This document shows, piece by piece, positions 1 to 13,626 of a stretch of DNA of 13,626 bases (the stretch's first letter is position 1; every line of letters starts with the position of its first letter). The notes beneath the pieces were generated by a model that was not told the origin of the DNA, did no database searches, and saw nothing but the letters and a program-made list of their open reading frames with translations. The stretch covers positions 1-13,626 of the forward strand of contig JAHEIA010000019.1 in assembly GCA_024639625.1 (NCBI GenBank). Reading direction: 5' to 3'. Both the position numbers and the translations under genes were made by a program. This DNA comes from Chromatiales bacterium (GTDB lineage Bacteria; Pseudomonadota; Gammaproteobacteria; Chromatiales; Chromatiaceae).

Positions 1-825
1 CAGATCGCTGTGACCAAGCAGCATCTGCACCACTCGCAGATCCGCTCCGTGGTTGAGCAAGTGGGTCGCGAACGCGTGGCGCAGGGTGTGCGGGGAAAGC
101 GGTTTCTCCACGCCGGCACACCGAGCGTGGCGCTTGATCAGATGCCAGAAGGCCTGACGGGTCATGCCAGCCCCGCGGCGCGTTGGAAACAACTCCACAC
201 ATAATCGCGCGCCGAGAAGATCGCTGCGCGGCCCTCGAGAAAATTGCTGCAGCCAGGTCAATGCCTCTTCGCCAAGAGGCACCAGGCGTTCCTTACCGCC
301 CTTGCCGAGGACTCGCCCCAGGCCCTGGGTGAGGCTCACCTGTTCCGGGCAAAGTTGCACCAGCTCCGACACCCGCAGACCGGTGGCATAGAGTACTTCG
401 AGCATGGTTCGGTCGCGAAATCCCTCCGGCGTCGCAACGTCCGGAGCGTCCAACAGCGCCTCCACTTCGGCCTCGGTCAACGAGTGGGGGAGCGGGCGGC
501 CCAGCTTTGGCGAGTCGATGCGCGCACAAGGATCGGCCCGCACCCAACCCTCACGCAGCGCGTGTTGATAGAACTGACGCAGGCAAGAGAGCAGGCGTGC
601 CGTCGAGCGCGGCTTTCGGCCGAGTAAAGAAAGGCCCGCCAGATAGTCGAGCAGATCTTGCCGCCGGGCGCCTGTCAGGCCGCGCCCGCGCGCCTCGCGC
701 AGCCAGCGGGCGACCGACTTGAGATCTGACTGATAGGCCGCGAGCGTGTTGTTGCTGAGCCCCCTTTCCATCCACAGGGCATCGGCAAAAGATTCGATCA
801 AGGCGCTGTCCGCCGCCTGCTTCAT
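1..825 (-). CDS. xerD: Site-specific tyrosine recombinase XerD (C-terminus cut by window edge)
   Basis: With XerC this enzyme resolves chromosome dimers at dif during division. The reading frame is open from an ATG at 825 to the window edge and gives 275 residues; the E. coli protein has 298. The N-terminal core-binding domain covers about residues 1-105. The catalytic domain shows R151 in ATGLRVSEL, K175 in LGKGGKERLVP, H246 and R249 in SPHTLRHAFATHLLNHG, and H272 in LLGHSDL. The nucleophilic tyrosine would lie just beyond base 1. The opening (MKQ...FADALWMERGLS..T) and the LPHSLTEAEVEALL linker match XerD rather than XerC. The start codon overlaps the ogt stop as ATGA, so the two are probably translationally coupled. 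The protein could be confirmed as XerD and not a mobile integrase by its housekeeping neighbours. Confidence 0.95.
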   Translation of the reverse strand, partial: MKQAADSALIESFADALWMERGLSNNTLAAYQSDLKSVARWLREARGRGLTGARRQDLLDYLAGLSLLGRKPRSTARLLSCLRQFYQHALREGWVRADPCARIDSPKLGRPLPHSLTEAEVEALLDAPDVATPEGFRDRTMLEVLYATGLRVSELVQLCPEQVSLTQGLGRVLGKGGKERLVPLGEEALTWLQQFSRGPRSDLLGARLCVELFPTRRGAGMTRQAFWHLIKRHARCAGVEKPLSPHTLRHAFATHLLNHGADLRVVQMLLGHSDL

Positions 826-1310
826 GCCCGCTCAGGAACCCCTTCGTGACGCAGCAGCCAGCGCTTTGCAGCAAGCTTCTTGCCACCCTTCGCTCCCGCA
901 TAGCCTCCCCAGCCATGCACCGCCACCACCCGGTGACAGGGCACGACGATCGGCACAGGGTTGGCCCGGCAGGCGTTCCCGATGGCGCGCGGGCTGGTGC
1001 CGAACTCCCCTGCCAATGCGCCATAGGTGCAGACGGTTCCTAGCGGAATCTGTTGCAGCCGCTGCCAGACCCGTTGCTGGAACGCGCTACCCTGCAGCGA
1101 CAGCGGGAGATCGAAACCGGGTCCCGGGTCCGCAAAGTACCGCCCGAGTTGGGCAGCAACCGCATGCTCGAATTCGGATCGTGCCGGGGCCTCTCGCAGC
1201 GGCCCATCGATATAGCGAATCTCGCTCAACGCGCCGCTCACGACCTGGAACGCAAGCCCCCCCAGGGGGGACCGCACAATGACCGAGGAGTCTGCTTGAA
1301 TGTTTCCCAT
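822..1310 (-). CDS. ogt: Methylated-DNA--[protein]-cysteine S-methyltransferase (Ogt/AGT type)
   Basis: A suicide repair protein that moves the alkyl group from O6-alkylguanine (and O4-alkylthymine) in DNA onto its own cysteine. The 162-residue product has the acceptor Cys125 in the signature IVVPCHRVV. The DNA-binding helix with the arginine finger is at SPRAIGNACRANP (R108), the asparagine hinge is N117, and the HEG segment at 155-157 supplies the conserved glutamate. Residues 1-70 form the poorly conserved N-terminal domain. There is no Ada-type regulatory domain, so this is a stand-alone Ogt-like enzyme. A GGAG Shine-Dalgarno lies 7 nt before the ATG, inside the 13-bp gap after sbcB. The 3' end overlaps xerD by 4 bp. 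The middle position in sbcB-ogt-xerD suggests co-expression with other DNA-maintenance functions. Confidence 0.95.
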   Translation of the reverse strand: MGNIQADSSVIVRSPLGGLAFQVVSGALSEIRYIDGPLREAPARSEFEHAVAAQLGRYFADPGPGFDLPLSLQGSAFQQRVWQRLQQIPLGTVCTYGALAGEFGTSPRAIGNACRANPVPIVVPCHRVVAVHGWGGYAGAKGGKKLAAKRWLLRHEGVPERA

Positions 1311-1323
1311 GCGCCGTCTCCGT

Positions 1324-2778
1324 CTATTGGTTCGCGCTCCCCGGGACTAGCTGCTTCGCATAACTCCTCAGCTCCTCAAGCACTTGTCGCTGTTCCGCGG
1401 TGTGGCTCGGGTCCGCCAGGAGTTCCGCGACACGCGCGAAGCACTCGTCTAAGGTGATAGAACCTGTATCGATTGTACCCGTAAGCCTGGCGATCCGCTG
1501 TTGCTCCCATCGCGCCTGTTCCTGCGGGGTAAGCGTATCCGGCCAGTTTCGCGCCCGATAACGCAGCAAGAGCTGCGGCAGTCGCGGGTCGTCGAAACCC
1601 GCTTCCAGGCTCGCCAGGCGCTGCGGTGAGGAACGGCGTACCATATCGATGCGCTTGCGATCTGCGTCGGAGAAGAAGCCGTCATACAGGGCTTGATCGG
1701 GATCGACTGCCGGCGGGAAAAAATCGACCGAGTAGATTCGCTCCAGCTTCTGCCGCAAGCCGTCCGCTGCCAGAAGCTGGTGACGTCTTGCCTCCGCCTG
1801 TTCGAGATCGATCTCCCACTCGCGAGCCCGATCCACGGTCAGGGTACGAATCGGGGCCAGCACCGGAGATTTATTCAGATGGATCTCCTTCAAACCGATC
1901 CTTTGCTCGCCGTCGGGAAGATCGCTCGATGCACGGTACATGCGTTCGCGTACCGCGTCCGGCTCTAGCGCCAGCAATGGCTCCGCATCATGGCGCAGAT
2001 CGAATACGACCACGCTGTTGCGGTTTCTCGGGTGGGCAGCAAGCGCCACCACCGGGCTGACGCACCCCAGGCGGGCCGGAATCCGCCGCGATACATGTAG
2101 CAGCAGCGGTTGACGACCCAGGTCCAAGAGACGGCTCGCAGCCGGCTTGCTCCGGTGGGCAACGGCATACTCGTAGAGTCGAGGTTGCCGGGCGCGCACC
2201 AGCTTGGCCAGCGCGATCGTGGCGTAGACGTCCGCCATTGCGTCGTGGGCCTCGCTGTGCTCGATGCCGTTGGCTGCCGAGAGGTCCTCGAGCCGGAAGC
2301 TCGGCGCGCCATCCTCGCGGATCGGCCAGGCGATGCCTTCCGGACGCAGGGCCCGGGCCAGACGCACGACATCGATGATGTCCCAACGGGAGTTTCCGTT
2401 TTGCCATTCCCGCGCATAGGGGTCGAAGAAGTTGCGATAGAGGGTAAAGCGGGTGACCTCGTCGTCGAAGCGGAGGCTATTGTAGCCGACCCCGCAGGTC
2501 CCGGCCCGCGCCAGCTGCTCGTGGATGAGTGAGATGAACTCCGCTTCACACAACCCCATGCGCAAGGCTCGCTGCGGTGTGATCCCGGTGATCAGACAGG
2601 CATCCGGCTCGGGGAGACAATCGCTCGCGGGTTTACAGTAGAGGAGCAGGGGTTCGCCGACGACATTCAATTCCAGGTCAGTGCGCACACCACCGAACTG
2701 GGCCGGACGGTCGCTGCGCGGATTCGCCCCCCAGGTCTCGTAGTCGTGCCAGTAATAGGTTCCGGAGTTCATGCTCAT
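1324..2778 (-). CDS. sbcB: Exodeoxyribonuclease I (SbcB)
   Basis: A processive 3'-5' exonuclease on single-stranded DNA, used in recombination and mismatch repair. With the ATG at 2778 the product is 484 residues (E. coli 475). Counting from the next ATG at 2772, DnaQ-fold catalytic residues align with E. coli: D10 and E12 in HDYETWG, D103 in RFDDEVTRF, H176 and D181 in EHSEAHDAMADV. SRWDIIDVVRLARALRPEGI and the PSFRLEDLSAANGIEHS block are typical of ExoI. The SH3-like and C-terminal helical domains follow. The frame extends to 2823, but that start has no Shine-Dalgarno and sits inside an inverted repeat; GGA 9 nt before 2778 favours the shorter form. The choice between 2778 and 2772 is open. 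The gene heads sbcB-ogt-xerD and lies just downstream of the rplS terminator. Confidence 0.95.
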   Translation of the reverse strand: MSMNSGTYYWHDYETWGANPRSDRPAQFGGVRTDLELNVVGEPLLLYCKPASDCLPEPDACLITGITPQRALRMGLCEAEFISLIHEQLARAGTCGVGYNSLRFDDEVTRFTLYRNFFDPYAREWQNGNSRWDIIDVVRLARALRPEGIAWPIREDGAPSFRLEDLSAANGIEHSEAHDAMADVYATIALAKLVRARQPRLYEYAVAHRSKPAASRLLDLGRQPLLLHVSRRIPARLGCVSPVVALAAHPRNRNSVVVFDLRHDAEPLLALEPDAVRERMYRASSDLPDGEQRIGLKEIHLNKSPVLAPIRTLTVDRAREWEIDLEQAEARRHQLLAADGLRQKLERIYSVDFFPPAVDPDQALYDGFFSDADRKRIDMVRRSSPQRLASLEAGFDDPRLPQLLLRYRARNWPDTLTPQEQARWEQQRIARLTGTIDTGSITLDECFARVAELLADPSHTAEQRQVLEELRSYAKQLVPGSANQ

Positions 2779-2810
2779 GACGCTTCGTCCGGCTTCCCTC
2801 GACGGCGGCT

Positions 2811-2840
2811 GCGCATAGACCATCGCATGGGTCTATGCGC
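2811..2840. repeat. Perfect 11-bp inverted repeat in the sbcB leader
   Basis: The arms GCGCATAGACC (2811-2821) and GGTCTATGCGC (2830-2840) are exact reverse complements around an 8-nt loop. The repeat sits between the rplS terminator and the sbcB start at 2778. No U-run follows the hairpin on either strand, so it is not an intrinsic terminator. It could be an operator or a 5'-UTR hairpin of the sbcB transcript. No clear sigma-70 promoter could be placed around it. Confidence 0.6.
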
Positions 2841-2843
2841 GGC

Positions 2844-2878
2844 AAAAAAAAACCATCCGGCGCAGACCGGATGGTTTT
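2844..2878 (-). terminator. Rho-independent terminator of the rpsP-rimM-trmD-rplS operon
   Basis: Read on the minus strand, a 12-bp stem (AAAACCATCCGG paired with CCGGATGGTTTT, 2867-2878 with 2849-2860) closes a 6-nt loop and runs into nine consecutive T (2852 down to 2844). It starts 28 bp after the rplS stop. The A-run on the other side also makes it symmetrical, but no plus-strand gene ends here. Confidence 0.93.
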
Positions 2879-2905
2879 CTTGATACGCGCCGTATCGGCG
2901 AGATG

Positions 2906-3250
2906 TCAAATCTTTTCTTTGATTCTCGCCGCCTTCCCGGTACGCCCGCGCAGGAAGTAGAGTTTCGCCCGACGCACGTCTCCCCGACGCACCACCTTGA
3001 TGTCGTTGAGCAGTGGACTATAAGTCTGGAAGCTGCGTTCCACACCCTCGCCGTGGGACATCTTGCGAACCGTGAAAGAGGAATTCAGACCGCGGTTGCG
3101 CTTGCCGATCACCACCCCTTCGAAGGCCTGCAGACGCTCGCGCGTCCCTTCCTTCACCTTTACCTGGACGACCACCGTGTCCCCTGGAGCAAAATCGGGT
3201 ACCTCGCGGGTGCTCTGCTCGGATTCGATTTCCTGGATCAGCTTGCTCAT
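2906..3250 (-). CDS. rplS: 50S ribosomal protein L19
   Basis: A large-subunit protein near the interface with the 30S subunit. The product from the ATG at 3250 is 114 residues, the normal family length (E. coli 115). Conserved blocks are [54 protein letters not shown] and the basic tail [13 protein letters not shown]. An in-frame TTG at 3259 would add three residues, but the AGGAG motif at 3260-3264 is spaced 9 nt from the ATG at 3250 and would abut the TTG. It is the last gene of the operon: 20 bp after trmD and followed by a strong terminator. Confidence 0.97.
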
Positions 3251-3270
3251 GGCTATCAACTCCTGATTAC

Positions 3271-4014
3271 TTAGGCGTCCAAATGCGCCCGGATAAATTC
3301 TTCAAGTAAATCCCGCTCTTCTTGCGTCAAACTGCGCGCTTGCAGCAGATCGGGACGACGCGACCAGGTGCGGCCCAGGGACTGCTTTAGCCGCCACCGG
3401 CGTATGACCTCATGATTCCCGCCCAGCAACACTTCCGGTACCCGCTGTCCTGCGAACTCTTCCGGCCGGGTGTAGTGCGGGCAGTCGAGCAGGCCTGCCA
3501 TGTGCGAATCCTGCTCCGCCGAATCCGCGTGCCCCAGCGCCCCGGGAAGCATGCGGATCACCGCATCCATCAACGCCATCGCGGCAAGCTCCCCGCCGCT
3601 CAGGACATAATCTCCGAGCGACCACTCTTCGTCCACTAACAGGTCGCTTATCCGCTCGTCGATCCCTTCGTAGCGACCGCAGACCAGGATCATGCCGGCA
3701 CGTTCGCGAGCGATCTCCCTGATCCGCTCCTGGGTCAACCGGCGTCCCTGCGGGCTGAGATAAGCTACCAAGGAACCCGGGGCCGCCCGTTTCGCAGCCT
3801 CGATCGCCGCCTGCAACGGCTCGGGCTTCATCAGCATACCCGGTCCGCCGCCATAGGGACGGTCGTCCACTGTCCGGTGCACGTCGCTGGTGTAATCCCG
3901 CGGGTTCCACAGGGTCATCCGCGCGATACCCCGCGCCAACGCCCGGCTGCTCACGCCATATTCCGCGAGCGCAGAGAACATCCCCGGCAACACGCTGACC
4001 ACATCGAAACGCAT
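3271..4014 (-). CDS. trmD: tRNA (guanine-37-N1)-methyltransferase TrmD
   Basis: Methylates G37 next to the anticodon with SAM, which prevents +1 frameshifting. The product is 247 residues, as expected for the family. The trefoil-knot SAM site is seen as YLSPQGRRL (85-93), [10 protein letters not shown] (112-121) and [11 protein letters not shown] (132-142). R154 and D169, catalytic residues in characterised TrmD, are conserved, as are [13 protein letters not shown] and [16 protein letters not shown]. The C-terminal tRNA-binding helical domain is complete. The start lies 19 bp after the rimM stop, with only a weak purine-rich ribosome-binding site. It forms the usual rpsP-rimM-trmD-rplS order, which couples ribosome synthesis with tRNA and 16S maturation. 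Confidence 0.97.
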
Positions 4015-4033
4015 GGGCTCGCCGAGCTCCGGC

Positions 4034-4552
4034 TCAGAAATCCCGATCCCAGTCCACCACCAACAGGCCGGCGCTGAGATCCACTTTGCGGACCACCCTT
4101 TGCCAAAGAAAGGGGATCAGCCGCTCGCGCTCCCCGCGCACGACCATGACGTCGTTCGCGCCGGTCGCAAACAGGTGGTCGATTCGACCCAGCTCGACCC
4201 CATCGGTCGTCTCGACCCGCAACCCCTGCAAGTCGGCCCAATAAAACTCATCCTGCGGCAGATCCGGCAGCTCCGCCCGGCTGACACCGATGTCGCACCC
4301 GACGAGGTCCGCCGCTTGATCGCGGCTCGAACAGCCTTCGAGTTTAGCGAGAATCCCTTTCCCGTGAACCTGACCCTCGCTCAGCCGGTGCGCCGCCCAG
4401 CCGCCCGCCCGGCCAAGATACCAGTGCGAATACTCGAGAATATTGCTCCGCGGCACCGTGTGGGAGAAGACGCGCACCCAGCCGCGAACGCCAAAAACGC
4501 CGCTCACCCGGCCCATGACAACGATCTCGGGGGCGGAGTATTCCTCAACCAT
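4034..4552 (-). CDS. rimM: 16S rRNA maturation factor RimM
   Basis: Binds S19 and helps mature the 30S head domain. The 172-residue product has the N-terminal RimM beta-barrel ([20 protein letters not shown], about 10-29) and the C-terminal PRC-barrel ([48 protein letters not shown]). The frame is open upstream to 4672, but that extension would run antiparallel to nothing and overlap the end of rpsP in another frame. The ATG at 4552 matches the family N-terminus and has GGGAG 9 nt upstream. The gap to the rpsP stop is then 56 bp. Confidence 0.95.
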
Positions 4553-4608
4553 GAGCCCGCGCTCCCGCACCGCGCGCCGACAAGGCGCGCAAGCGCCACC
4601 CAAGCCGG

Positions 4609-4848
4609 TCAGGCTCCCTTTTTCAACAGCTTGGCGACAGCCTCCGAGGGCTTCGCCCCGGTCGACATCCAATGCTCAACCCGCTCGCGGTCGATGCGCA
4701 GGGCTTCCGCGGCGCCGCGCGCCACCGGATTATAGAACCCGACACGTTCGATAGAGCGCCCATCGCGACCGTTGCGGTTGTCGGTAACGACGATGTGATA
4801 GAACGGCTGCTTCTTCGCGCCGGCTCTCGAAAGACGAATGCTTACCAT
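4609..4848 (-). CDS. rpsP: 30S ribosomal protein S16
   Basis: A small-subunit protein needed for early 30S assembly. The product is 79 residues (E. coli 82). [20 protein letters not shown], then [19 protein letters not shown] and the [16 protein letters not shown] segment are family hallmarks. A GGTGG ribosome-binding site lies about 5 nt before the ATG. It is the first gene of the rpsP-rimM-trmD-rplS operon and has its own promoter and a hairpin-bearing leader in the 101-bp gap behind ffh. Confidence 0.97.
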
Positions 4849-4877
4849 ATTCCACCCTGAGACAAATTCTCTGCGAG

Positions 4878-4897
4878 CCCGCTGCCCAAGCAGCAGG
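4878..4897 (-). promoter_or_regulatory. Hairpin at the 5' end of the rpsP leader RNA
   Basis: In the minus-strand RNA, eight consecutive pairs (one G-U) close a UUGG tetraloop (4886-4889). With transcription starting near 4901, the hairpin begins about four nucleotides into the message and ends about 30 nt before the ATG. No U-run follows, so it is not a terminator. Protection of the 5' end or autoregulation by a ribosomal protein is possible; nothing here decides between them. Confidence 0.5.
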
Positions 4898-4907
4898 GGA
4901 ACCGCGC

Positions 4908-4935
4908 ATTGTACTGAATTTCCGCGAAATGTGAA
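4908..4935 (-). promoter_or_regulatory. Sigma-70 promoter of the rpsP operon
   Basis: On the minus strand, -35 TTCACA (4930-4935) and -10 TACAAT (4908-4913) are separated by 16 bp. The predicted start near 4901 gives a leader of about 52 nt to the rpsP ATG. No terminator for ffh is visible between 4936 and 4949, so some read-through from ffh is likely. Confidence 0.7.
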
Positions 4936-4949
4936 GGCCTGTGATGCGC

Positions 4950-6311
4950 TTAGAAAGGGAATCCCCCGGGGGGCATGCGACCGCGCATACCCCGCATCAT
5001 CTTCGCCATACCTCCGCCCTTCATCCTTTTCATCATCTTCTGCATCTGATCGAACTGTTTGAGCAGCCGATTCACGTCCTGCACCTGGGTGCCGGAGCCC
5101 GCCGCGATGCGCCGCTTGCGGGAACCCTTGATCACTGCCGGGAAGCGCCTCTCTTGCCGGGTCATCGAATTGACGATGGCGATCATCTTGCCCATTTCCT
5201 TATCGTTGACCTGATTCTTCACCTGCTCCGGCACCTGCTGCATCCCCGGGAGCTTGTCCAGCAGGGCGCCGACGCCGCCTAGATTGTTCATCTGCTGCAT
5301 CTGCTCGCGAAAGTCGTCCAGGTCGAATCCCTTCCCCTTCTTCAGCTTGCTCGCGAGATGCTCCGCCTTGTCGCGGTCGATCCTGCGTTCCACGTCCTCG
5401 ACCAGACTGAGTACGTCCCCCATCCCGAGGATCCGCGAAGCGACCCGGTCTGGGTAGAAGGGCTCCAGAGCCGCCGTCTTCTCTCCCACACCGAGGAATT
5501 TGATCGGCTTGCCGGTGATCTCACGGATCGAAAGCGCCGCACCGCCACGGGCATCGCCGTCCGCCTTGGTCAAGATCACACCGGTCAGCGGTAACGCCGC
5601 ATCGAACGCCTTGGCGGTATTAGCGGCATCCTGGCCGGTCATGCTGTCGACGACGAACAAGGTCTCGGTCGGCTGCAGCAACCCGTGCAGCTCGCGGATC
5701 TCACCCATCATCTCCTCGTCCACGTGCAACCGGCCGGCGGTGTCGACGATCAACACGTCGGCGAAGCGCTTGCGCGCGTCGGCGAACGCCTGCTCGGCGA
5801 TGGCAGACGGACGCTGATCCGCTTGGCTGGGGAAGAAATCAACCCCGACCTCTCCCGCCAGGGTCGCAAGCTGCTCGATGGCGGCGGGACGATAGACGTC
5901 GCAGCTGACCACGCTGACCGACTTTTTCTGCCGCTCCTTCAACCAGCGGGCCAGCTTGGCGACCGTGGTGGTCTTGCCGGAACCCTGCAGGCCGGCCATC
6001 AGGATCACCACCGGCGGCTGGGCCGCCAGGTTCAGTCCCTCGTTGGCCTCGCCCATGACGGCAACCATCTCGTCGCGCACGATCTTGATCAGCATCTGAC
6101 CGGGGCTGAGGCTCCTGAGCACCTCCTCGCCCATGGCCTTCTCGCGCACCTGGTCGACGAAGCGACGAACTACCGGAAGCGCGACGTCCGCCTCGAGCAG
6201 CGCCATGCGCACCTCGCGCAGGGTGTCCTTGATGTTGTCCTCGCTGAGTCGAGCCTGCCCGCGCAGGTCTTTGAGCACCCTACCGAGGCGTTGCGTAAGA
6301 TTGTCGAACAT
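4950..6311 (-). CDS. ffh: Signal recognition particle protein Ffh (SRP54 GTPase)
   Basis: Binds 4.5S RNA and signal sequences of nascent membrane proteins and delivers ribosomes to FtsY at the inner membrane. The 453 residues equal the E. coli length. Domains in order: N domain (1-95); G domain with P-loop GLQGSGKTT (107-115), DVYRPAA (138-144), DTAGR (190-194) and TKADG (248-252); and the methionine-rich M domain from about 328, with the RNA-binding [12 protein letters not shown] (397-408) and a Met-rich tail. The frame stays open to 6365, but the start at 6311 gives the canonical [10 protein letters not shown]-terminus. The likely promoter would start transcription at about 6366, leaving no room for the long form. 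Confidence 0.97.
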
Positions 6312-6507
6312 GGGGCTTGGTGTCCTGCAGCCGCAGCTGCCTGTGATTAACCTGAAACGGCACAAACTTTAAATTATAACCAAATTCGGCCCCGATCCCG
6401 ATTGCCGGAAGCGAGTATCCGGCACCCGCGGCCGCCCGGCACCCTGCGGAGCCTCTTCCCATCGCGGCGAAATCTATGCAATCATCAGCGCTCCATGGGA
6501 AACGGCA
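6312..6507. other. Divergent intergenic region between ffh and ypjD
   Basis: This 196-bp spacer must hold the promoters of both ffh (minus) and ypjD (plus). It contains the TATAAT box for ffh and a short inverted repeat GCCGGA/TCCGGC (6404-6409 and 6418-6423, 8-nt loop). For ypjD only a weak TATGCA at 6474-6479 was found, so its promoter is not convincingly located. No small gene is supported. Confidence 0.6.
6373..6378 (-). promoter_or_regulatory. -10 box of the probable ffh promoter
   Basis: TATAAT on the minus strand is a perfect -10 hexamer and would start transcription near 6366, about 54 nt before the ffh ATG. The -35 region at the right distance (about 6396-6401) is poor, so activity may depend on an activator or the box may be fortuitous. 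Confidence 0.5.
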
Positions 6508-7314
6508 ATGCATTACACACTGATCGCAATCCTCGCTGTCGCCGCTTATCTGGTTAGCGGTCTGATCATCGCCGTTCGGCTGTTCCGCGGCGATCAACAC
6601 GCCCCGCCGCGGGCCCTGGGGATTCTCGTTGGCCTGGCGGCGATCCTGCTGCACGCAGCCGTTCTGTTCCAGGACATCTTCACCGCAAGCGGAATCAATC
6701 TTGCGTTCTTTAACGCGCTCTCCCTTATCGCCTGGACCATCGCGCTGCTGCTGCTGATCTCGAGCCTGGGCAAGCCGGTGGAGAATCTCGGTATCCTGCT
6801 GCTGCCCCTTGCAGCAATCGCTATCGTGCTGGAACTACGTTATCCGTCCGTGCGCCCGCTCGGCGAAACTGCGACCTTGGGACTCAAGGTGCACATCCTG
6901 GTCTCGCTGCTCGCGTACAGCCTGTTGACGCTGGCCAGCGTGCAAGCAGTCCTCTTGGCAATTCAAGATCAGCACCTGCGCAATCGCCATCCGGGAGGCT
7001 TCATTCGGGCCCTGCCGCCGCTGCAAACCATGGAAACGCTGCTGTTCGAGATGATCGCTGTGGGATTCTTTCTGCTCAGCCTGGCGCTGGTAAGCGGCTT
7101 CATGTTTCTCGAGGACCTGTTTGCCCAACATCTAGTGCACAAGACCGTATTGTCCATCACCTCATGGATCGTCTTCGGTGTGCTGCTTTGGGGCCGCTAC
7201 CGTTTCGGTTGGCGTGGCCGCACCGCGATCGGCTGGACCTTGGGGGGGGTCGCCGTTTTGATGCTCGCCTATCTGGGCAGCAAAGCGGTGTTGGAGCTGA
7301 TCCTCCAGCGCTGA
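6508..7314 (+). CDS. ypjD: YpjD-type inner-membrane protein of the CcsA/HemX cytochrome c assembly family
   Basis: The 268-residue product is an integral membrane protein with about eight hydrophobic segments (roughly 3-26, 36-55, 65-88, 93-110, 126-152, 183-201, 211-228, 239-264). Histidines H129 and H211 occupy positions typical of heme-handling CcsA-like proteins. The C-terminal LLWGRYRFGWRGRTAIGW and LAYLGSK segments closely resemble E. coli YpjD, which also sits next to ffh. The exact function of YpjD is not established; a role in heme or cytochrome c handling is inferred from the superfamily. GGGA about 7 nt before the ATG is a plausible ribosome-binding site. The last 153 bp overlap, tail to tail, the 3' end of the transferase gene on the other strand. 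Confidence 0.9.
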   Translation: MHYTLIAILAVAAYLVSGLIIAVRLFRGDQHAPPRALGILVGLAAILLHAAVLFQDIFTASGINLAFFNALSLIAWTIALLLLISSLGKPVENLGILLLPLAAIAIVLELRYPSVRPLGETATLGLKVHILVSLLAYSLLTLASVQAVLLAIQDQHLRNRHPGGFIRALPPLQTMETLLFEMIAVGFFLLSLALVSGFMFLEDLFAQHLVHKTVLSITSWIVFGVLLWGRYRFGWRGRTAIGWTLGGVAVLMLAYLGSKAVLELILQR

Positions 7315-7911
7315 GCCCGGGAGGTCCTCCGGGCGATCCAAGTCCCGCATCACCGGCAACTCCCGCCACCGCCAACCCAGGCTGCGAAGCCGCGCACGGG
7401 TTTGCTCGAGCACCCGAGGCCCACCCCAGGCGATCCCTCGGAACAGCCTTGGGTCCAAGCGTCGCAATCCCATGAGTACATAGCCGCCGTCCGCCGCTGG
7501 CCCGAGCACTGCGGCACTGCCTCGGCCCAGCCAGCGCAAGGCGCACGCCACCGCGACGGAATCGAGCTCGGGACAATCCGTGCCGATCAAGACCGCCGGT
7601 TCGCCACGCCTTAGGGCAGCCCGGGTGGCATTGCACATGCGGCGGCCCAGATCGCCCTCCCCTTGCGCATGGAGCGTGAGCCGAAATTCAGCCGCCAGCG
7701 CTGCGAACAGGGGATGACGAGTATCCGGTGCACACCAGAGCTGAATCGGGCACAGCCGCGCCCGCGCATGACGCTCCACCGTTTGCAGCAACAAGTGTCG
7801 CGCCAAATCCGCCGCCGCCTGCGCGCCAAGCCGGGGAATCAGGCGCGTCTTCACCGCCCCCGGTTCCGGTGCCTTGGCGAAGATCAGGAGTCGGGCCCGG
7901 GGGAACCGCAC
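7162..7911 (-). CDS. rSAM/selenodomain-associated transferase 1 (TIGR04282, DUF2064 glycosyltransferase-like)
   Basis: A small GT-A-like nucleotidyl/glycosyl transferase of unknown substrate. The GTG at 7911 gives 249 residues; the longer open frame up to 8235 lies inside the preceding gene and shows no family similarity. Core motifs are LLIFAKAPEPGAVKTRL (8-24, like nucleotide-sugar pyrophosphorylases), GEGDLGRRM (84-92), VLIGTDCPEL (107-116) and LGPAADGGYVLMGL (136-149), ending with LPVMRDLDRPEDLP (185-198). Family similarity stops about there. Residues 200-249 are polar, low-complexity, and wholly antisense to the last codons of ypjD. The start overlaps the upstream transferase by 28 bp. 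The family is named for co-occurrence with the radical SAM protein encoded upstream, which supports a shared pathway. The GTG start is the least certain point. Confidence 0.85.
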   Translation of the reverse strand: MRFPRARLLIFAKAPEPGAVKTRLIPRLGAQAAADLARHLLLQTVERHARARLCPIQLWCAPDTRHPLFAALAAEFRLTLHAQGEGDLGRRMCNATRAALRRGEPAVLIGTDCPELDSVAVACALRWLGRGSAAVLGPAADGGYVLMGLRRLDPRLFRGIAWGGPRVLEQTRARLRSLGWRWRELPVMRDLDRPEDLPGSALEDQLQHRFAAQIGEHQNGDPPQGPADRGAATPTETVAAPKQHTEDDP

Positions 7912-8600
7912 GTTCGGTAGATCCGCGCCAGCCGCTCGGGATCCGCTCCCAGGGTATACGCAAGACGCAGACGCCACATCAGGAACACCGTGCGTAGGAT
8001 GCCCTGGCGCTCCCAGCGGCGACTGGAGGCGGTCAGCGCGCGCCGGATGCGCGCAGGGCGCCCCTTGCGTTTCAGCAGACGGCTCAGCGCCACATCCTCC
8101 ATGAGGGCGATCTGCGGAAACCCGCCTACCGACTGGAAACATTCCCGGGTGACGAAAATACCCTGGTCCCCGGTGGCGATGCCGCTCCATGTGGAGCGCA
8201 GATTCATCATCCGTTCGATTACCCGCAGCAGCCAATCGCGGCCGCTGAGACGCACCTCGAAGCGCCCCCAGCAGGCACCCTCCCCGATCGCCCGCCGGAT
8301 CGCCTGATCCGCATTCAGAGGGGCAACACTGTCCAGATGGAGAAACCAGAGAATCGGATGGCGCGCGGCCTGGGCCCCGGCGTTCATCTGCCGCGCCCGG
8401 CCCGGCTCGGTCCGCAGGATTCGATCCACCAGCCCGCGCGCCAGCTCGGCCGAGGCATCCCGACTGCCGCCGTCCACGAGGATCAATTCATCGCCGCGCT
8501 GGCGCATGAATTGCAGCCGGCGCAGCGCCGTACGCAGGATCCGCCCTTCGTTCAGGCAAGGCAGCACCACCGAAATCGATGTCGCCGCAGCGTCAGCCAA
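7884..8600 (-). CDS. rSAM/selenodomain-associated transferase 2 (TIGR04283, GT2-family glycosyltransferase)
   Basis: A GT-A glycosyltransferase of about 238 residues. It shows ISVVLPCLNEGRILRTAL (9-26), VDGGSRD (42-48), GRARQMNAGAQAA (67-79), the nucleotide-sugar HLDS region (88-91), WGRFEVRLSG (111-120), ATGDQGIFV (142-150), MEDVALSRLLKR (167-178) and SSRRWERQGILRT (192-204), the typical order for this family. No ATG is available upstream of the core. TTG at 8600 (behind GGTGG), GTG at 8609 and GTG at 8660 are all possible; the first two fit the family length best. The gene overlaps the end of the radical SAM gene by 8 bp or more and the next transferase by 28 bp, so the three are one translationally coupled operon. 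The sugar and the acceptor are unknown. Confidence 0.88.
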   Translation of the reverse strand: MADAAATSISVVLPCLNEGRILRTALRRLQFMRQRGDELILVDGGSRDASAELARGLVDRILRTEPGRARQMNAGAQAARHPILWFLHLDSVAPLNADQAIRRAIGEGACWGRFEVRLSGRDWLLRVIERMMNLRSTWSGIATGDQGIFVTRECFQSVGGFPQIALMEDVALSRLLKRKGRPARIRRALTASSRRWERQGILRTVFLMWRLRLAYTLGADPERLARIYRTCGSPGPDS

Positions 8601-9558
8601 GCGCCCCACCGCAACCGCTGCCCTGCCCCGCGGTGCACCCGAAGCAATGCCCTGCCACACCGATCGCTCGACCGCTCAACTCTTCCTGCAGCACAGAGCT
8701 GATATGGCGAAGATTCGTGCCCCTATCCCCGCCGAGGCCGATGCCTAACATCTGGTTGAAGTCGCAGTCGAAAAGATACCCCCGCCAGTCGATGCTCACC
8801 AGACTGCGACACATCACTGCCTCGAGATTCTCCTCTTGGTGCGCGGTGCGCAGAAGGTCTAGATAGCCAGCCAATTGCCCCTTGCTGAGAAGCGTGCTGC
8901 CGAAGCGCTGGATCGGCATGTTGGCGATGCAGAGCAAACGGGTGAAAGCGATGCCGTAGCGTTCCCCAAGGTGCTTGCGGTAATCCGCCTCCAGCTCCGG
9001 CTGGCTCGGCGGCAGGCTGGGTCCGGGCGGGTTGTACACAAGACTCAGCCCGAGGCCCGACTGCCTGTCGCCGTACCCCAGCCCATTGAGCCGCCGCAGG
9101 GCGCGAATGCTCTTCTCGAAAACACCTTTGCCGCGCTGTGCGTCGACGTTTTCTTCCAGGTAGCAGGGGAGAGAGGCCACGACCTCGACTTGCTGAGCGG
9201 CCAGGAAGTCCGCCAGATCCTCGTAGCCCGGCTCCTCTAGGATCGTCAGATTGCAGCGATCCATCACATGGACGCCGAATCTGCGGGCGCGCATCACCAA
9301 ATCGCGGAAATTCGGGTTGAGCTCCGGAGCCCCGCCGGTCAAGTCCAAGGTGGCCACCCCTTGGCGGTGGACAAATTCCAGCACCTGTTCGATGGTCTCC
9401 GGCTGCATCTGCTCCGAGCGTTTGGGACCGGCCGCGACATGGCAGTGGAGACAGGACTGGTTGCAGCGATACCCCAGGTTGACCTGGACCGCCTGCAATC
9501 TGCCGCGGCGAATCGAGGGAAAACCGGATTGGAGAAGAAAAGGGACGGTGTCGAGCAT
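8593..9558 (-). CDS. arsS: Radical SAM/Cys-rich protein, ArsS-like (TIGR04167 with DUF3641 C-terminal domain)
   Basis: The 321-residue product has the [4Fe-4S]/SAM motif CNQSCLHC (C32, C36, C39) in the context [14 protein letters not shown], then [13 protein letters not shown] (72-84). The C-terminal Cys-rich domain has C250, the [12 protein letters not shown] block with C265, and [13 protein letters not shown] (C305, C308, C316). This is the ArsS family, implicated in arsenosugar biosynthesis; some members are selenoproteins, but here all key positions are cysteine. The ATG at 9558 gives the usual N-terminal length but lacks a clear Shine-Dalgarno; in-frame starts at 9648 (ATG) and 9663 (TTG) exist. 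No arsM or ars operon gene is in the window, so arsenic chemistry is inferred from the family only. It heads the operon with the two transferases. Confidence 0.88.
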
Positions 9559-9641
9559 CGGTTTGCGGTTTTTTCTGGGGCGCTGGGCGCGGATGACCCA
9601 ATGGTAGCTAGAGCACAAGCGCAACGACAAGCGATCGGCTG

Positions 9642-9672
9642 TTGCCATGAGGCCGAAGAGCAATGATACAAT
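9642..9672 (+). promoter_or_regulatory. Possible promoter of tRNA-Ala
   Basis: TTGCCA (9642-9647) and TACAAT (9667-9672) resemble sigma-70 boxes, with a long 19-bp spacer, followed by a C-rich stretch. Transcription would start near 9679 and give a precursor leader of about 47 nt. The same segment contains the upstream in-frame start codons of arsS on the other strand. Confidence 0.35.
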
Positions 9673-9725: not shown

Positions 9726-9801
<76 letters not shown>

Positions 9802-10176: not shown

Positions 10177-12660
10177 ATGGCAGTTGAGCACCATGTCACA
10201 CCCTCCGAATGGACGGAACTCGAGCGCAACACCACCCCTTGGGACGAGGCGTCGCCGCTGGAGCGCGTGGTGCTCGGCGTGCGCAACGGCCATACAGCAA
10301 GCGCTTTACCGCCGGTGCGGATCTTTCTCGGCACCGAGACCGGGCAGTTCCGAGCGGAGCGGGTGTTCGTCTGGTCGATCGAGCAGCTGCGCGATCCGTC
10401 TCGAGTCTACGAAATCACATTGATGAAGGAGCTTCCCGGGTTTGACCGGCGGAAATGGCTCACCGGCTTTACCAATTACCGCTTCGCTATTCCGGAACTC
10501 GCAGGACGCACCGGACGCGCGATCTACAACGATGTCGACCAGATCTATCTCAGCGACCCGGCCGACCTGTTTGACACCCCGATGGGGGAGCACGGATTTC
10601 TCTCGATTTCGGATCGCGATACCTCGGTGATGCTGATCGACTGCGCCCGCATGGCGCGCTTGTGGACCATCGAAGCCGCCCGCAGCCGGCGCCGCAAGAA
10701 GCTCGAAGCGATGGCGCGCGAGATCCCGGGTCTATGGGGCCGCATGGACGGGGGCTGGAATGCGCGCGACGAGGAGTACCAGGCCGGCCAGTCGCATCTG
10801 ATCCATTACACGATCATCCACTCGCAACCCTGGCGCCCCTTTCCGCAACGCTTCGTCTACCAGCGCAATCCGATCGCCGAAGTCTGGCAAGCCCTGGAAC
10901 GAGCCGCGGACGCTGCCGGCTATCAATTGTTTAGCGCCGCAGAACCGAGCAATAAATTTCGCACCCTGGCCATGCGTTGCCGTTCGCGCGAGCGAACGGA
11001 GGAAAGCCAGGCCGCAGCCCGGCCGCCACTCGCGGCAGCACCGGGCGGCACGAAAGCGGCGCCCTGGCAGGGTCTGCAAGACCTCATGGCCCAGACCAAT
11101 GCCCGGCAGTTGCTGCACTACACCTTGGGGCCGGAGGTTCCTGCTACCATGCGCGCCACCGATCCCGCAGCGGCAGACTGGACGGCTTGCAACCCCTTGC
11201 TAGAACCCTCGGACCTCGAGGCCGCACGAAACGTCGATGGCACTGTCTGCAGCGCCTTGCTGGAGTACTTGCCCGACGAAGACGTGCCCTGGGTGCTCAA
11301 CCAGATGTTCGACCGGGCGCAGCGCTTCGTCTTCGTAGTGGTGGACGGCAACGCAGGCCCGTTGGAATTGCCCGATGGCAGCCAAGCGGCCCCTAGGGAG
11401 CGTTCGCGCAGTTGGTGGGATTCGGTCTTCGAGCTTCCGGGCATGCGTCATCCGCAGATCCACTGGCGGCTGCTCGTGCGCGAGCATGCCTCACCGGGAA
11501 GAACGGACTGGGCGGCGCAAGGCGGTGGGCGCAGCCTGGCCGCAACGCCAAAGGTCTGGGTACTGGCCGACGACAAAACCGGTCACAATATCCAGTCGGA
11601 GGGCCTGGCGCGCACCCTGGGTTGGCCTTATGAGGTCAAACGCCTGCGCTTCAATCATCGAAACCGCCTGAGCAACGAGCTGCTGGGTGCGAGTCTGCGC
11701 AGCCTGGATCGCAACAACTCGGACCCACTCGATCCGCCCTGGCCCGACCTGGTGATCTCCACCGGTCGGCGCGAAGCGCCGATCGCGCGCTGGATCGGGC
11801 GGCAGAGCCAGGGCGGAACCCGGCTCGTGCATCTCGGCCGCAAGGGGGGAGAGACCGCTGATCAGTTTGACCTGGTGGTGAGCTGCAGCCATTTTCGGCA
11901 GCCCTATCACCCGCGCAGGATGGAGACGTTGGTCCCACTGAACAACCTGGGCCCGGCGGAACTGCGGGCGGCCGCCGACCATTGGCGAGGACTGTTTGCG
12001 GACGCCCCTGCGCCGCACCTGGCCCTGGTGGTGGGCGGCCCCTCGGCGCTGCACAGGCTCGGCCCGGCTAGCGCGTTGCGGATCGGCCGCGAGGTTGCTC
12101 GATTCGCGGAGACGCTCGGCGGATCGGTATTCGCGATCACTAGCCCACGTACCGGGGAGCGGGCAACCCAGGCGCTGCGCGAGGGGCTCGGAGAGCAACA
12201 TTCAGTCTACGCCTGGGAACCAAACGATCCGTCCAACCCCTATCTGGGGTACCTGGCGCTGGCCGATATCCTGGTGGTCACCGGGGAAAGCGAATCGATG
12301 CTGAGCGAAGCCGCGACGACCGGGAAACCCTTGCTGATCTACCCGTTACCGGATCGTAGGCCCGGGCTGCGCGCTCGTGTCGCCGAGGCGGTAGTGCGCA
12401 TCTCCCAGGCGCCCCGCTACAACAAACGGGGAACCATCAAACCGCAACGCGGGCTGCAGTATTGGTGCGCCCGACTGATCGATCGCGGCTGGGTGCGTCC
12501 GCGCCGGGATCTCAACAAGATGCATGCGGCATTGGTCGCCAGCGGTGTCGCTCAGATGTTCGGCAGCGAGCTCAAGACCGGGGAGCGACCGCGGCTCGCG
12601 GAGGCGCGCAAGGTTGCGGAACGGATCCGCAGGCTCATGGGTTTCGCGGGCGAGGCATGA
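10177..12660 (+). CDS. Three-part protein: GT-A-like domain, degenerate SAM-methyltransferase-like domain, ELM1/GtrOC1-type putative glycosyltransferase
   Basis: An 827-residue cytoplasmic protein without signal peptide or membrane segments. Residues about 46-250 resemble a GT8-like glycosyltransferase: VRIFLGTETGQ, then IYNDVDQIYLSDPADLFD with a DVD metal-binding motif (119-121), and a HYTIIHSQPWRPF segment. Residues about 300-437 resemble the C-terminal half of a class I methyltransferase (LLEYLPDEDVPWVLNQMFDRAQRFVFVVV, written here as two parts: 361-379 and 380-389), but motif I is replaced by LLHYTLGPE. Residues about 457-800 match the ELM1 family (PF06258): KVWVLADDKTGHN, LVISTGRREAPIA, LALVVGGPSALHRL, and TGESESMLSEAATTGKPLL. 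GAGG 8 nt before the ATG supports this start. The stop overlaps the next gene as ATGA. The substrate is unknown; assembly or decoration of a surface glycan is the likeliest role. Confidence 0.8.
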   Translation: MAVEHHVTPSEWTELERNTTPWDEASPLERVVLGVRNGHTASALPPVRIFLGTETGQFRAERVFVWSIEQLRDPSRVYEITLMKELPGFDRRKWLTGFTNYRFAIPELAGRTGRAIYNDVDQIYLSDPADLFDTPMGEHGFLSISDRDTSVMLIDCARMARLWTIEAARSRRRKKLEAMAREIPGLWGRMDGGWNARDEEYQAGQSHLIHYTIIHSQPWRPFPQRFVYQRNPIAEVWQALERAADAAGYQLFSAAEPSNKFRTLAMRCRSRERTEESQAAARPPLAAAPGGTKAAPWQGLQDLMAQTNARQLLHYTLGPEVPATMRATDPAAADWTACNPLLEPSDLEAARNVDGTVCSALLEYLPDEDVPWVLNQMFDRAQRFVFVVVDGNAGPLELPDGSQAAPRERSRSWWDSVFELPGMRHPQIHWRLLVREHASPGRTDWAAQGGGRSLAATPKVWVLADDKTGHNIQSEGLARTLGWPYEVKRLRFNHRNRLSNELLGASLRSLDRNNSDPLDPPWPDLVISTGRREAPIARWIGRQSQGGTRLVHLGRKGGETADQFDLVVSCSHFRQPYHPRRMETLVPLNNLGPAELRAAADHWRGLFADAPAPHLALVVGGPSALHRLGPASALRIGREVARFAETLGGSVFAITSPRTGERATQALREGLGEQHSVYAWEPNDPSNPYLGYLALADILVVTGESESMLSEAATTGKPLLIYPLPDRRPGLRARVAEAVVRISQAPRYNKRGTIKPQRGLQYWCARLIDRGWVRPRRDLNKMHAALVASGVAQMFGSELKTGERPRLAEARKVAERIRRLMGFAGEA

Positions 12661-13424
12661 TCAACCTGGTCCTAGTCCGGCACGGGCAAAGCGTCTGGAA
12701 TCGCGACCGCAGGTTGACCGGCTGGAGCGATGTCCCCTTGAGTGATCGCGGACGCGCCGAGGCCCGGGCCGTCGGACTCATGCTGGCTGGCGAGGAATAC
12801 CAGTTCGACGTCGCCTTCACCTCGTGTCTCGAGCGCGCGGAAGAGACCCTCTCGATCGTGCTCGAATCCTTGGAGAAGCAAGACATCCCAATCCACCGCA
12901 GCTGGCGTCTGAACGAGCGTCATTACGGGGCCATGCAGGGCATGAGCCGGCCGGAGGCGGCGCGCGAATTCGGACTGAAGCAACTCCTGGCCTGGCAGAG
13001 CGGCTACGGCGAGCGCCCACCTCCGGTCCCACTGACAGACCAGCGGCATCCGCGCAACGACCCCCGCTACGCCGGCCTTCCGCAAGAGGTATTACCCGCC
13101 ACAGAAAGTCTGCGCGACACCCTGGAGCGCGTGCTGCCGTTCTGGCAGGAGACGGTCCTGCCCGAGATACGCTCCGGCCGGCGCGTTCTCCTGGTCGCTC
13201 ACAAGACCAGTGTGCGCGCCCTGCGTAAGCACCTGGAGGGCATATCGGACGAGGATATCGCGCGACTCACGGTGCACACCGGCGAGCCCATCGCCTACCG
13301 CTTGGACACCGAGGGCCGGGCGTTGTGGCACCGGTCGCTCAATCCCAGCGGTCGTTTGAAGCGCTGGACCCAGGCGGCCCTGGGGAAATGGATTCAGACA
13401 TCGTCGCGGAGAAGCTACCGATGA
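12657..13424 (+). CDS. Phosphoglycerate-mutase (GpmA-type) homologue with altered substrate pocket
   Basis: A 255-residue histidine phosphatase superfamily protein with overall dPGM length and order. Catalytic residues are kept: R8-H9 in LVRHGQSVWN, R60, E87 in NERHYG, and H182. Residues that hold phosphoglycerate in E. coli GpmA differ: K100 is R98, the R116-R117 pair of QWRRG is Q114-S115 (AWQSG), and the G-N after the second histidine is K183-T184 (AHKTSVRAL). This suggests a phosphatase or mutase on another phosphorylated compound, although a GpmA annotation would be returned by most searches. The ATG at 12657 overlaps the stop of the fusion gene and its own stop overlaps the next gene, so it is tightly coupled to glycosyltransferase-type neighbours and not to glycolytic genes. 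An open frame upstream to 12462 is only overlap with the previous gene. Confidence 0.85.
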   Translation: MINLVLVRHGQSVWNRDRRLTGWSDVPLSDRGRAEARAVGLMLAGEEYQFDVAFTSCLERAEETLSIVLESLEKQDIPIHRSWRLNERHYGAMQGMSRPEAAREFGLKQLLAWQSGYGERPPPVPLTDQRHPRNDPRYAGLPQEVLPATESLRDTLERVLPFWQETVLPEIRSGRRVLLVAHKTSVRALRKHLEGISDEDIARLTVHTGEPIAYRLDTEGRALWHRSLNPSGRLKRWTQAALGKWIQTSSRRSYR

Positions 13425-13626
13425 ATTATCTCAACTACGAACTGATGGACGCCATCGATGGGGCGAGTTTTCGCGCAGCGGAGCCCTATCCCTGGTTGAA
13501 CCCGGAGGGTTTCCTGACCGAGGAGGCATACCAGCGCCTGCGCAGCGAGCTGCCCGACCTATCCCTGTTCCGCAGTTCCTTCGACGTGCAGCGGGCGCAC
13601 GGACAGCAGAGCCACGACCGTTACTC
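13421..13626 (+). CDS. Probable 2OG-Fe(II) oxygenase family protein (N-terminal part, cut by window edge)
   Basis: The frame is open from an ATG at 13421 to the end, giving 68 codons. The start overlaps the upstream stop as ATGA. Residues 19-49 (AEPYPWLNPEGFLTEEAY, then RLRSELPDLSLF) and the segment AHGQQSHDRYS resemble the N-terminus of bacterial proteins annotated as 2OG-Fe(II) oxygenases. The iron-binding HxD...H motif would lie beyond the window, so the assignment cannot be confirmed here. By context it would hydroxylate a sugar, lipid or peptide made by this operon. Confidence 0.6.
   Translation, partial: MNYLNYELMDAIDGASFRAAEPYPWLNPEGFLTEEAYQRLRSELPDLSLFRSSFDVQRAHGQQSHDRY

Follow-up and report, generated by a model that had tools for sequence, protein, structure and literature searches.

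A three-gene operon with a probable role in giving bacterial outer-membrane sphingolipids an unusual sugar head group

A 13,626-bp stretch of DNA from a Chromatiales bacterium, hereafter the window, ends in three tightly joined genes that encode a fused glycosyltransferase (gene 1), a GpmA-like enzyme with an altered substrate pocket (gene 2), and the N-terminus of a protein of the 2-oxoglutarate/Fe(II) oxygenase family (gene 3). The window is the entire contig C611 of a draft genome that comprises 626 contigs and is 88% complete. We propose that the probable task of this operon is to equip outer-membrane sphingolipids with an unusual sugar head group. Judged from the sequences, the three genes would form a module that assembles the head group of a glycolipid based on ceramide or ceramide phosphate. 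We find this reading reasonably likely, and the operon is best explained, with some reserve, as a new form of sphingolipid assembly for the bacterial outer membrane.

All three genes lie on the forward strand. Gene 1 (10177..12660, 827 aa) shares the four bases of an ATGA with the start of gene 2 (12657..13424, 255 aa) at 12657..12660, and a second ATGA at 13421..13424 joins gene 2 to gene 3, of which the first 68 codons (13421..13626) precede the end of the contig. An earlier note on this DNA, made from the sequence alone, had recognized both overlaps and had also seen correctly that the window ends inside the operon. The two start-stop overlaps point to a single transcript and coupled translation for genes 1 to 3; the fixed stoichiometry that the note read from them had to be dropped, as overlaps of this kind do not show it. 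The other 70% of gene 3 is absent from the genome bin as well, and the assembly therefore lacks the sequence that continues rightward from the window.

The evidence for a role in sphingolipid assembly comes from the company that gene 1 keeps. A one-genome-per-species scan yielded 110 confirmed gene 1 loci, of which the best 80 were kept; all counts out of 80 refer to these. The neighbors of gene 1 encode serine palmitoyltransferase (SPT), acyl carrier protein (ACP), acyl-AMP ligase, a GNAT-type CerS-like protein, lipid kinase, and nucleoside triphosphate (NTP) transferases, together with a fused NTP transferase/CDP-alcohol transferase, an LpxL-like acyltransferase, an MsbA-like ABC transporter, and LptF/G. 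The most frequent among the 80 loci are ABC transporter (38), NTP transferase (35), LptF/G (26), CerS-like (25), AMP ligase (22), LpxL-like (21), and lipid kinase (20) genes. Any sphingolipid marker was found in 57/80 loci, with a cluster that merges SPT and the epimerase-type (CerR-like) reductase, and true SPT lies within the fetched stretch in 25/80. When carrier genomes were searched at E ≤ 1e-70, SPT was detected in 44 of 48. Stretch and genome taken together, SPT accompanies gene 1 in 66 of the 70 carrier loci examined (10 of the 80 were unexamined, and a few loci share a genome), a linkage of the type known from Caulobacter that is also represented by locus L115 in the closest relative of the window genome. 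At the same threshold, the control set of 54 relatives of the window genome gave SPT in three, with one more falling narrowly short (1.1e-69), and two of these three, G005 and G046, carry pieces of the gene 1 family.

The identity of the SPT query is firm, with 419.6 bits against the best SPT structure and 219 bits against the best non-SPT structure. Ten of the 44 SPT-positive carrier genomes reached only 272–301 bits. In the seven of these ten that were tested, the SPT model SerpalmtaseCFB was the best match, at 512–527 bits and under its cut-off of 640. Four genomes (three Binatia and one Desulfurellaceae) carry low-scoring SPT-type genes next to genes of the CerS, kinase, and reductase types, all on the contig that holds gene 1. 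In two Binatota genomes (G058 and G060), the series gene 1, phosphoglycerate mutase (PGM)-like gene, and gene 3 shares its contig with CerS-like, SPT-type, reductase, and kinase genes.

The association was also seen across the window's class, in a sample of 370 genomes for which the gene 1 search (E ≤ 1e-60) and the SPT search (E ≤ 1e-90) are taken as covering the same set, as the listed handles agree. The gene 1 family occurs in 12 genomes, SPT in 23, and both in 10, so that SPT is present in 10/12 carriers versus 13/358 non-carriers (Fisher's test, p ~6e-12, or ~1e-12 without the window's genome, shared descent being ignored in both). Six of the 12 carriers have the fused gene and one has it in two contig pieces; SPT was found in six of these seven and is missing in the window's own genome (G000). 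All four carriers with the ELM1 part only have SPT, and the remaining one (G448) holds the GT-A part only. The class-wide limit excludes weaker carriers, G046 among them. In G215 and G314, a gap of 59 bp separates the SPT match from the gene 1 match. The closest relative of the window genome (G055, locus L013) has the operon on contig C49 and the ceramide-type locus L115 on contig C10, where the SPT matches NF047599 at 605.7 bits (cut-off 500). Elsewhere, a genome of the window's family (G013) encodes, near SPT, an ABC transporter 62% identical to the one adjacent to gene 1 in L013, and a GT-A homologue lies beside ACP and SPT in G005.

Gene 1 joins a glycosyltransferase of GT8 fold and a GT-B domain of the ELM1 type in one protein, which bears out the two glycosyltransferase-type folds that the note had assigned to it. 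Its N-terminal domain (residues ~30–270) shows the GT8 GT-A fold with DxD, and the PF01501 (GT8) cut-off of 24.3 is not reached by the whole protein (15.6 bits) or by the domain (19.1 bits). The ELM1/KdoT-type GT-B domain (residues ~455–825) matches PF06258 at 205.8 bits, against a curated cut-off of 27. The middle region (residues ~312–450; 11110..11526, forward strand) has an alpha/beta pattern of secondary structure with a closing beta hairpin, and no Pfam match at E ≤ 1. The note's MT-like label for this region is at most tentative, with no Pfam match at this level and no conserved glycine-rich S-adenosylmethionine motif.

Bacterial ELM1 proteins carry an annotation derived from a plant mitochondrial fission factor, and the only one that our literature search found with an assayed function is KdoT from Acinetobacter baumannii. 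In the accessible text of PMC12856342 and PMC10936431, KdoT moves 3-deoxy-D-manno-oct-2-ulosonic acid (Kdo) from CMP-Kdo, and the former names the lipid A core as its acceptor. The same text of PMC12856342 reports that the positive charge of the second arginine of the KdoT SRRT motif (R180) is required for full activity, and that changing the first arginine alone has no effect. Gene 1 reads SPRT at this SxRT motif. Among the 35 gene 1 sequences aligned, 34 have the second arginine of the motif (R658), and the variable position 657 is R in 21 and P in 14 of the 35; the equivalence with the KdoT arginines is one of motif, as the KdoT sequence is not in the alignment. The retention of R658 therefore makes a carboxylated CMP-sugar donor plausible for the ELM1 domain. 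CMP-sugar synthetase-type genes occur in 17/80 loci and NeuB-like genes in 10/80. In Nitrospirota loci L019, L022, and L024–L029, SPT and gene 1 are followed by NeuB-like and MocA-type genes; CMP-sugar synthetase-type genes are present in most of these loci and HAD genes in some, which suggests from gene content that a nonulosonic-type acid sugar is made on site.

Additional ELM1 genes were also observed. In eleven loci (L032–L034, L038–L042, and L044–L046), the gene immediately after the fused gene 1 is a stand-alone ELM1 gene, and two different ELM1 steps may therefore share one pathway. A second, stand-alone ELM1 gene beside a sulfotransferase-like gene is found in L002 (contig C121 of the window genome) and at 18359–20651 of L013, a pair common to the window genome and its closest relative; the sulfotransferase label in L002 was given by eye.

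Several observations weigh against a sphingolipid role. No SPT was found in the 88% complete draft of the window genome (best match 191 bits, the level of related enzymes), nor were CerS-like and CC_1153-type NTP transferase genes, so that the combination of SPT, CerS-type, and CC_1153-type genes of a Caulobacter-type locus is not seen in this genome. A gene-1-type ABC transporter gene was not found there either, the best match having ~30% identity. Because the rest of gene 3 is itself missing from the bin, the lack of sphingolipid genes is not readable as true absence. Four of the 48 other carrier genomes (those of L063, L073, L079, and L081) have no SPT at E ≤ 1e-70, and G448, which is 95% complete, has none in the class-wide test. 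Thirteen SPT-bearing genomes of the class show no gene 1 relative at E ≤ 1e-60, and SPT loci therefore often do without gene 1. The labels CerS, CpgD, and CC_1153 derive from Pfam class and gene order, not from alignment to the Caulobacter proteins, and the Fisher tests take no account of shared descent. Finally, many of the neighbors (LpxL-like, MsbA-like, and LptF/G) would fit lipopolysaccharide as well.

This last point leads to the strongest alternative, in which the operon modifies the ordinary lipopolysaccharide core, with gene 1 acting on the core as a fused, KdoT-like glycosyltransferase and gene 3 as a hydroxylase of Kdo or a core sugar, and the sphingolipid link reflects a clustering of outer-membrane lipid genes. 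The acceptor reported for KdoT in the accessible part of PMC12856342 agrees with this, as do the LpxL-like gene directly upstream of gene 1 in 17 loci, the MsbA-like ABC gene in the same position in 11, the frequency of LptF/G given above, and a window genome without detectable sphingolipid genes among those sought. However, the class-wide association is with SPT itself, SPT/CerR-type genes (merged cluster) lie directly upstream of gene 1 in 10 loci, and the sphingolipid region of Caulobacter includes second LptC/F/G copies along with a potential flippase gene, according to the available text of PMC11324152. We therefore regard modification of the lipopolysaccharide core as unlikely, and retain head-group assembly on a sphingolipid as the preferred reading.

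Gene 2 encodes a histidine phosphatase-fold protein (PF00300, 126.9 bits) that the note had described as GpmA-like with a changed pocket, and the alignment agrees. R8, H9, R60, E87, and H182, which we take to be the catalytic phosphohistidine site of GpmA, are retained. On the substrate side, R98, Q114, S115, K183, and T184 replace the canonical K, R, R, G, and N (pattern R..Q..HKT instead of K..RR..HGN), residues that presumably contact 3-phosphoglycerate in GpmA. The protein falls within TIGR01258, the 2,3-bisphosphoglycerate-dependent PGM subfamily, and misses the cut-off of the NCBIfam equivalog PRK14115 (280.4 versus 305 bits). Among the 120 nearest proteins, 26 are of the HKT type (the query included, with R98 and Q114), 93 have the canonical K..W-R-R..H-G-N, and one is intermediate. 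K98R, R114Q, G183K, and N184T are invariant in 26/26 rows of the window clade, position 115 is variable, and the five catalytic residues are kept in all HKT rows that have those columns, two rows being truncated at the N-terminus. A midpoint-rooted tree, which took in 24 of the 93 canonical rows, unites the HKT rows in a single clade (support 100/99). The neighbors of this clade are GpmA-like proteins encoded in gene 1 loci of Binatota and Nitrospirota (92/86), and the GpmA-like proteins of four Pelagibius-type loci are set apart on a long branch adjacent to the canonical rows. On the basis of these sequence patterns, gene 2 is assigned to a sharply bounded offshoot of GpmA. A plasmid search with gene 2 returned 322 records, all below 60% identity, and four of the five rows listed are annotated gpmA.

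A housekeeping mutase role for gene 2 is disfavored, as the host genome has two GpmI-type matches above the family cut-off and gene 2 therefore need not serve glycolysis; no other GpmA-type gene was found in that genome, where the next match scores 21 bits. Gene 2 might instead feed the pathway, supplying D-2-phosphoglycerate to a CpgD-type cytidylyltransferase that makes CDP-glycerate for ceramide phosphoglycerates. CpgD prefers D-2-phosphoglycerate in vitro, as stated in the accessible text of PMC12275187, and CpgD-like NTP transferases are present in 22/80 loci and GpmA-like genes in 8/80. We nevertheless consider this supply role improbable, since the invariant changes of the window clade lie on the substrate side, the host already has its two GpmI-type genes, and the CC_1153-type NTP transferase was not found in the window genome, in which no CpgD search was made.

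Gene 3 is the N-terminus of a predicted 2-oxoglutarate oxygenase whose nearest relatives in fold are PasI and PolD; the note's iron-oxygenase-like assignment is thus supported through its full-length relatives. The 68-codon fragment has no PF13640 match of its own and is 66% identical to the 234-aa gene 3 protein of L013, which at full length matches PF13640 at 28.9 bits (cut-off 27). Other relatives score 28.0 (L060), 22.9 (L018), and 26.2 bits (the divergent L077). The HxD...H residues and the 2-oxoglutarate arginine (H125, D127, H197, and R210) are present in 17/17 aligned full-length relatives, and the window copy ends before them. The predicted fold of the L013 protein (pLDDT 92.5) is closest to PasI and PolD among solved folds (TM 0.65–0.73, E 4e-12 to 1e-11), which are also the best sequence-profile matches of a gene 3 relative (2.6e-15 for 9ei6). 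The Kdo hydroxylase KdoO serves as an analogy only, three full-length relatives matching no more than PF13640 and PF13661 (E ≤ 1).

Recurrence of the three genes in the same order, which the note had named as a check, was found in three of the 80 loci, namely L013 (Gammaproteobacteria) and L016 and L018 (Binatota), and thus in two phyla, Pseudomonadota and Binatota. Genes 1 and 2 overlap by 4 bp in L016 and L018, as in the window, and by 8 bp in L013, a value that depends on the ATG chosen as the start there. The gene 3 family is present in 38/80 loci. Eight of these members are of a divergent type, three of which were aligned and have 23–25% identity to the L013 protein. The 30 window-type members all occupy one of three positions: 18 come directly after the fused gene 1, 9 after a tandem stand-alone ELM1 gene, and 3 after the GpmA-like gene. 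In one locus, gene 3 directly follows a GT-A-only gene. Directly after gene 3, L013 encodes a stand-alone GT-A protein related to the N-terminal domain of gene 1 (13854–14582), and a gene of this type is a possible fourth gene of the window operon. An accidental neighborhood of carbohydrate genes moved between genomes, without a joint pathway, is disfavored and in our view very improbable: a full-length gene 1 match was obtained in the window's own genome only of 55 searched (34 of the window's family, where it is patchy), and five of the eight GpmA-like genes are not adjacent to gene 1, but the order recurs across phyla, every window-type gene 3 takes one of the three positions above, and the gene 2 clade is monophyletic and pocket-invariant.

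Upstream of the operon, the window carries three arsenosugar-biosynthesis-type genes on the reverse strand (7162–9663), matching the ArsS radical SAM family TIGR04167 at 442 bits (cut-off 300), TIGR04283 at 261 (182), and TIGR04282 at 202 (134). A tRNA-Ala gene (anticodon cgc; 9726–9801, forward strand) lies between this set and gene 1. A relative of the window ArsS with 56% identity (L136, 4314–5441) is found near SPT-type and CerS-like genes in a Binatia genome (G057), and the two ArsS/lipid-gene neighborhoods may be chance. Recent acquisition of the operon left no signal in base composition, with a GC content of 0.655 for genes 1 and 2 versus 0.636 for positions 1–9663 of the window.

What we observed are the identities of the genes, the folds of their domains, the altered pocket, the repeated gene order, and the ties to sphingolipid genes; from these we infer substrates, donors, and product. 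The GT-A domain of gene 1 would add one nucleotide-activated sugar. Its ELM1 domain would add an acidic ulosonic sugar (Kdo-like or nonulosonic) that is donated in CMP-activated form. Gene 3 would hydroxylate the sugar or the lipid part, and gene 2, with its phosphohistidine chemistry intact and a new pocket, may remove or move a phosphate on a non-glycolytic substrate. Export could be carried out by the MsbA-like ABC transporter and the LptF/G-type proteins found beside many gene 1 relatives. The note had envisaged a conserved system for a phosphorylated surface glycan; a conserved surface-glycoconjugate system is upheld, and its partner system looks like sphingolipid synthesis and export, which the note had not anticipated. 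More tentatively, and with considerable doubt, the product may be a widespread lipopolysaccharide look-alike built on ceramide, an unrecognized class of outer-membrane lipid. In such a lipid, the anchor would be a (phospho)ceramide to which the GT-A/ELM1 fusion attaches two sugars, one of them a ulosonic acid derived from a CMP donor (Kdo or nonulosonate), the oxygenase and the repurposed glycolytic mutase would trim the head group, and its distribution would extend over Pseudomonadota, Nitrospirota, Binatota, and others.

In several phyla, Nitrospirota and Binatota included, our analysis connects bacterial sphingolipids with a large family of fused ELM1 proteins, a neofunctionalized enzyme of glycolysis, and a family of oxygenases. 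What were hypothetical proteins thereby become a lipid pathway open to direct testing. The analysis also bears on the use of anionic sphingolipids by some Gram-negative bacteria in or beside lipopolysaccharide. Among the top-ranked papers listed by our literature searches, none linked ELM1 fusions to sphingolipids, with most subscription journals outside their coverage.

WbbM makes an O-antigen glycan, and its other domain is not known to be ELM1. This bifunctional glycosyltransferase with a GT8-fold domain (6u4b) is a close known system for gene 1. KdoT has in common with gene 1 the ELM1 GT-B fold and an SxRT motif with a functionally important second arginine, whereas gene 1 is fused to a GT8-fold domain and its relatives associate with sphingolipid genes. 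GpmA belongs to the same family as gene 2, which retains the catalytic residues and TIGR01258 membership and differs in its five substrate-side residues and its score below the PRK14115 equivalog cut-off. PasI and PolD belong to nucleoside antibiotic pathways. They provide the nearest solved folds for the gene 3 relative (9ei6, 9ei7, and 9blq), PasI having been solved with octanosyl acid 2-phosphate, but identity is only 19–21% and the gene 3 neighborhoods are lipid loci.

For the neighborhoods of gene 1 relatives, a close known system is the ceramide diphosphoglycerate region CC_1152–CC_1168 of Caulobacter (CpgA-D, Spt, CerS, and LptF2/G2), as presented in the accessible text of PMC11324152 and PMC12275187. 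Ceramide is phosphorylated there and then extended with phosphoglycerates (available parts of PMC11324152, PMC12275187, and PMC13228409), CDP-glycerate being made by CpgD (PMC12275187), and the second LptC/F/G copies and the potential flippase are the proposed lipid exporters (PMC11324152). The main text of PMC11324152 has no match for ELM1, glycosyltransferase, or phosphoglycerate mutase. The Caulobacter region and the gene 1 neighborhoods share SPT, ACP, acyl-AMP ligase, an epimerase-type reductase, and a GNAT-type CerS-like protein, as well as lipid kinase, NTP transferases, CDP-alcohol transferase, and LptF/G; to this common set, the gene 1 loci add two glycosyltransferase domains, a GpmA offshoot, and an oxygenase.

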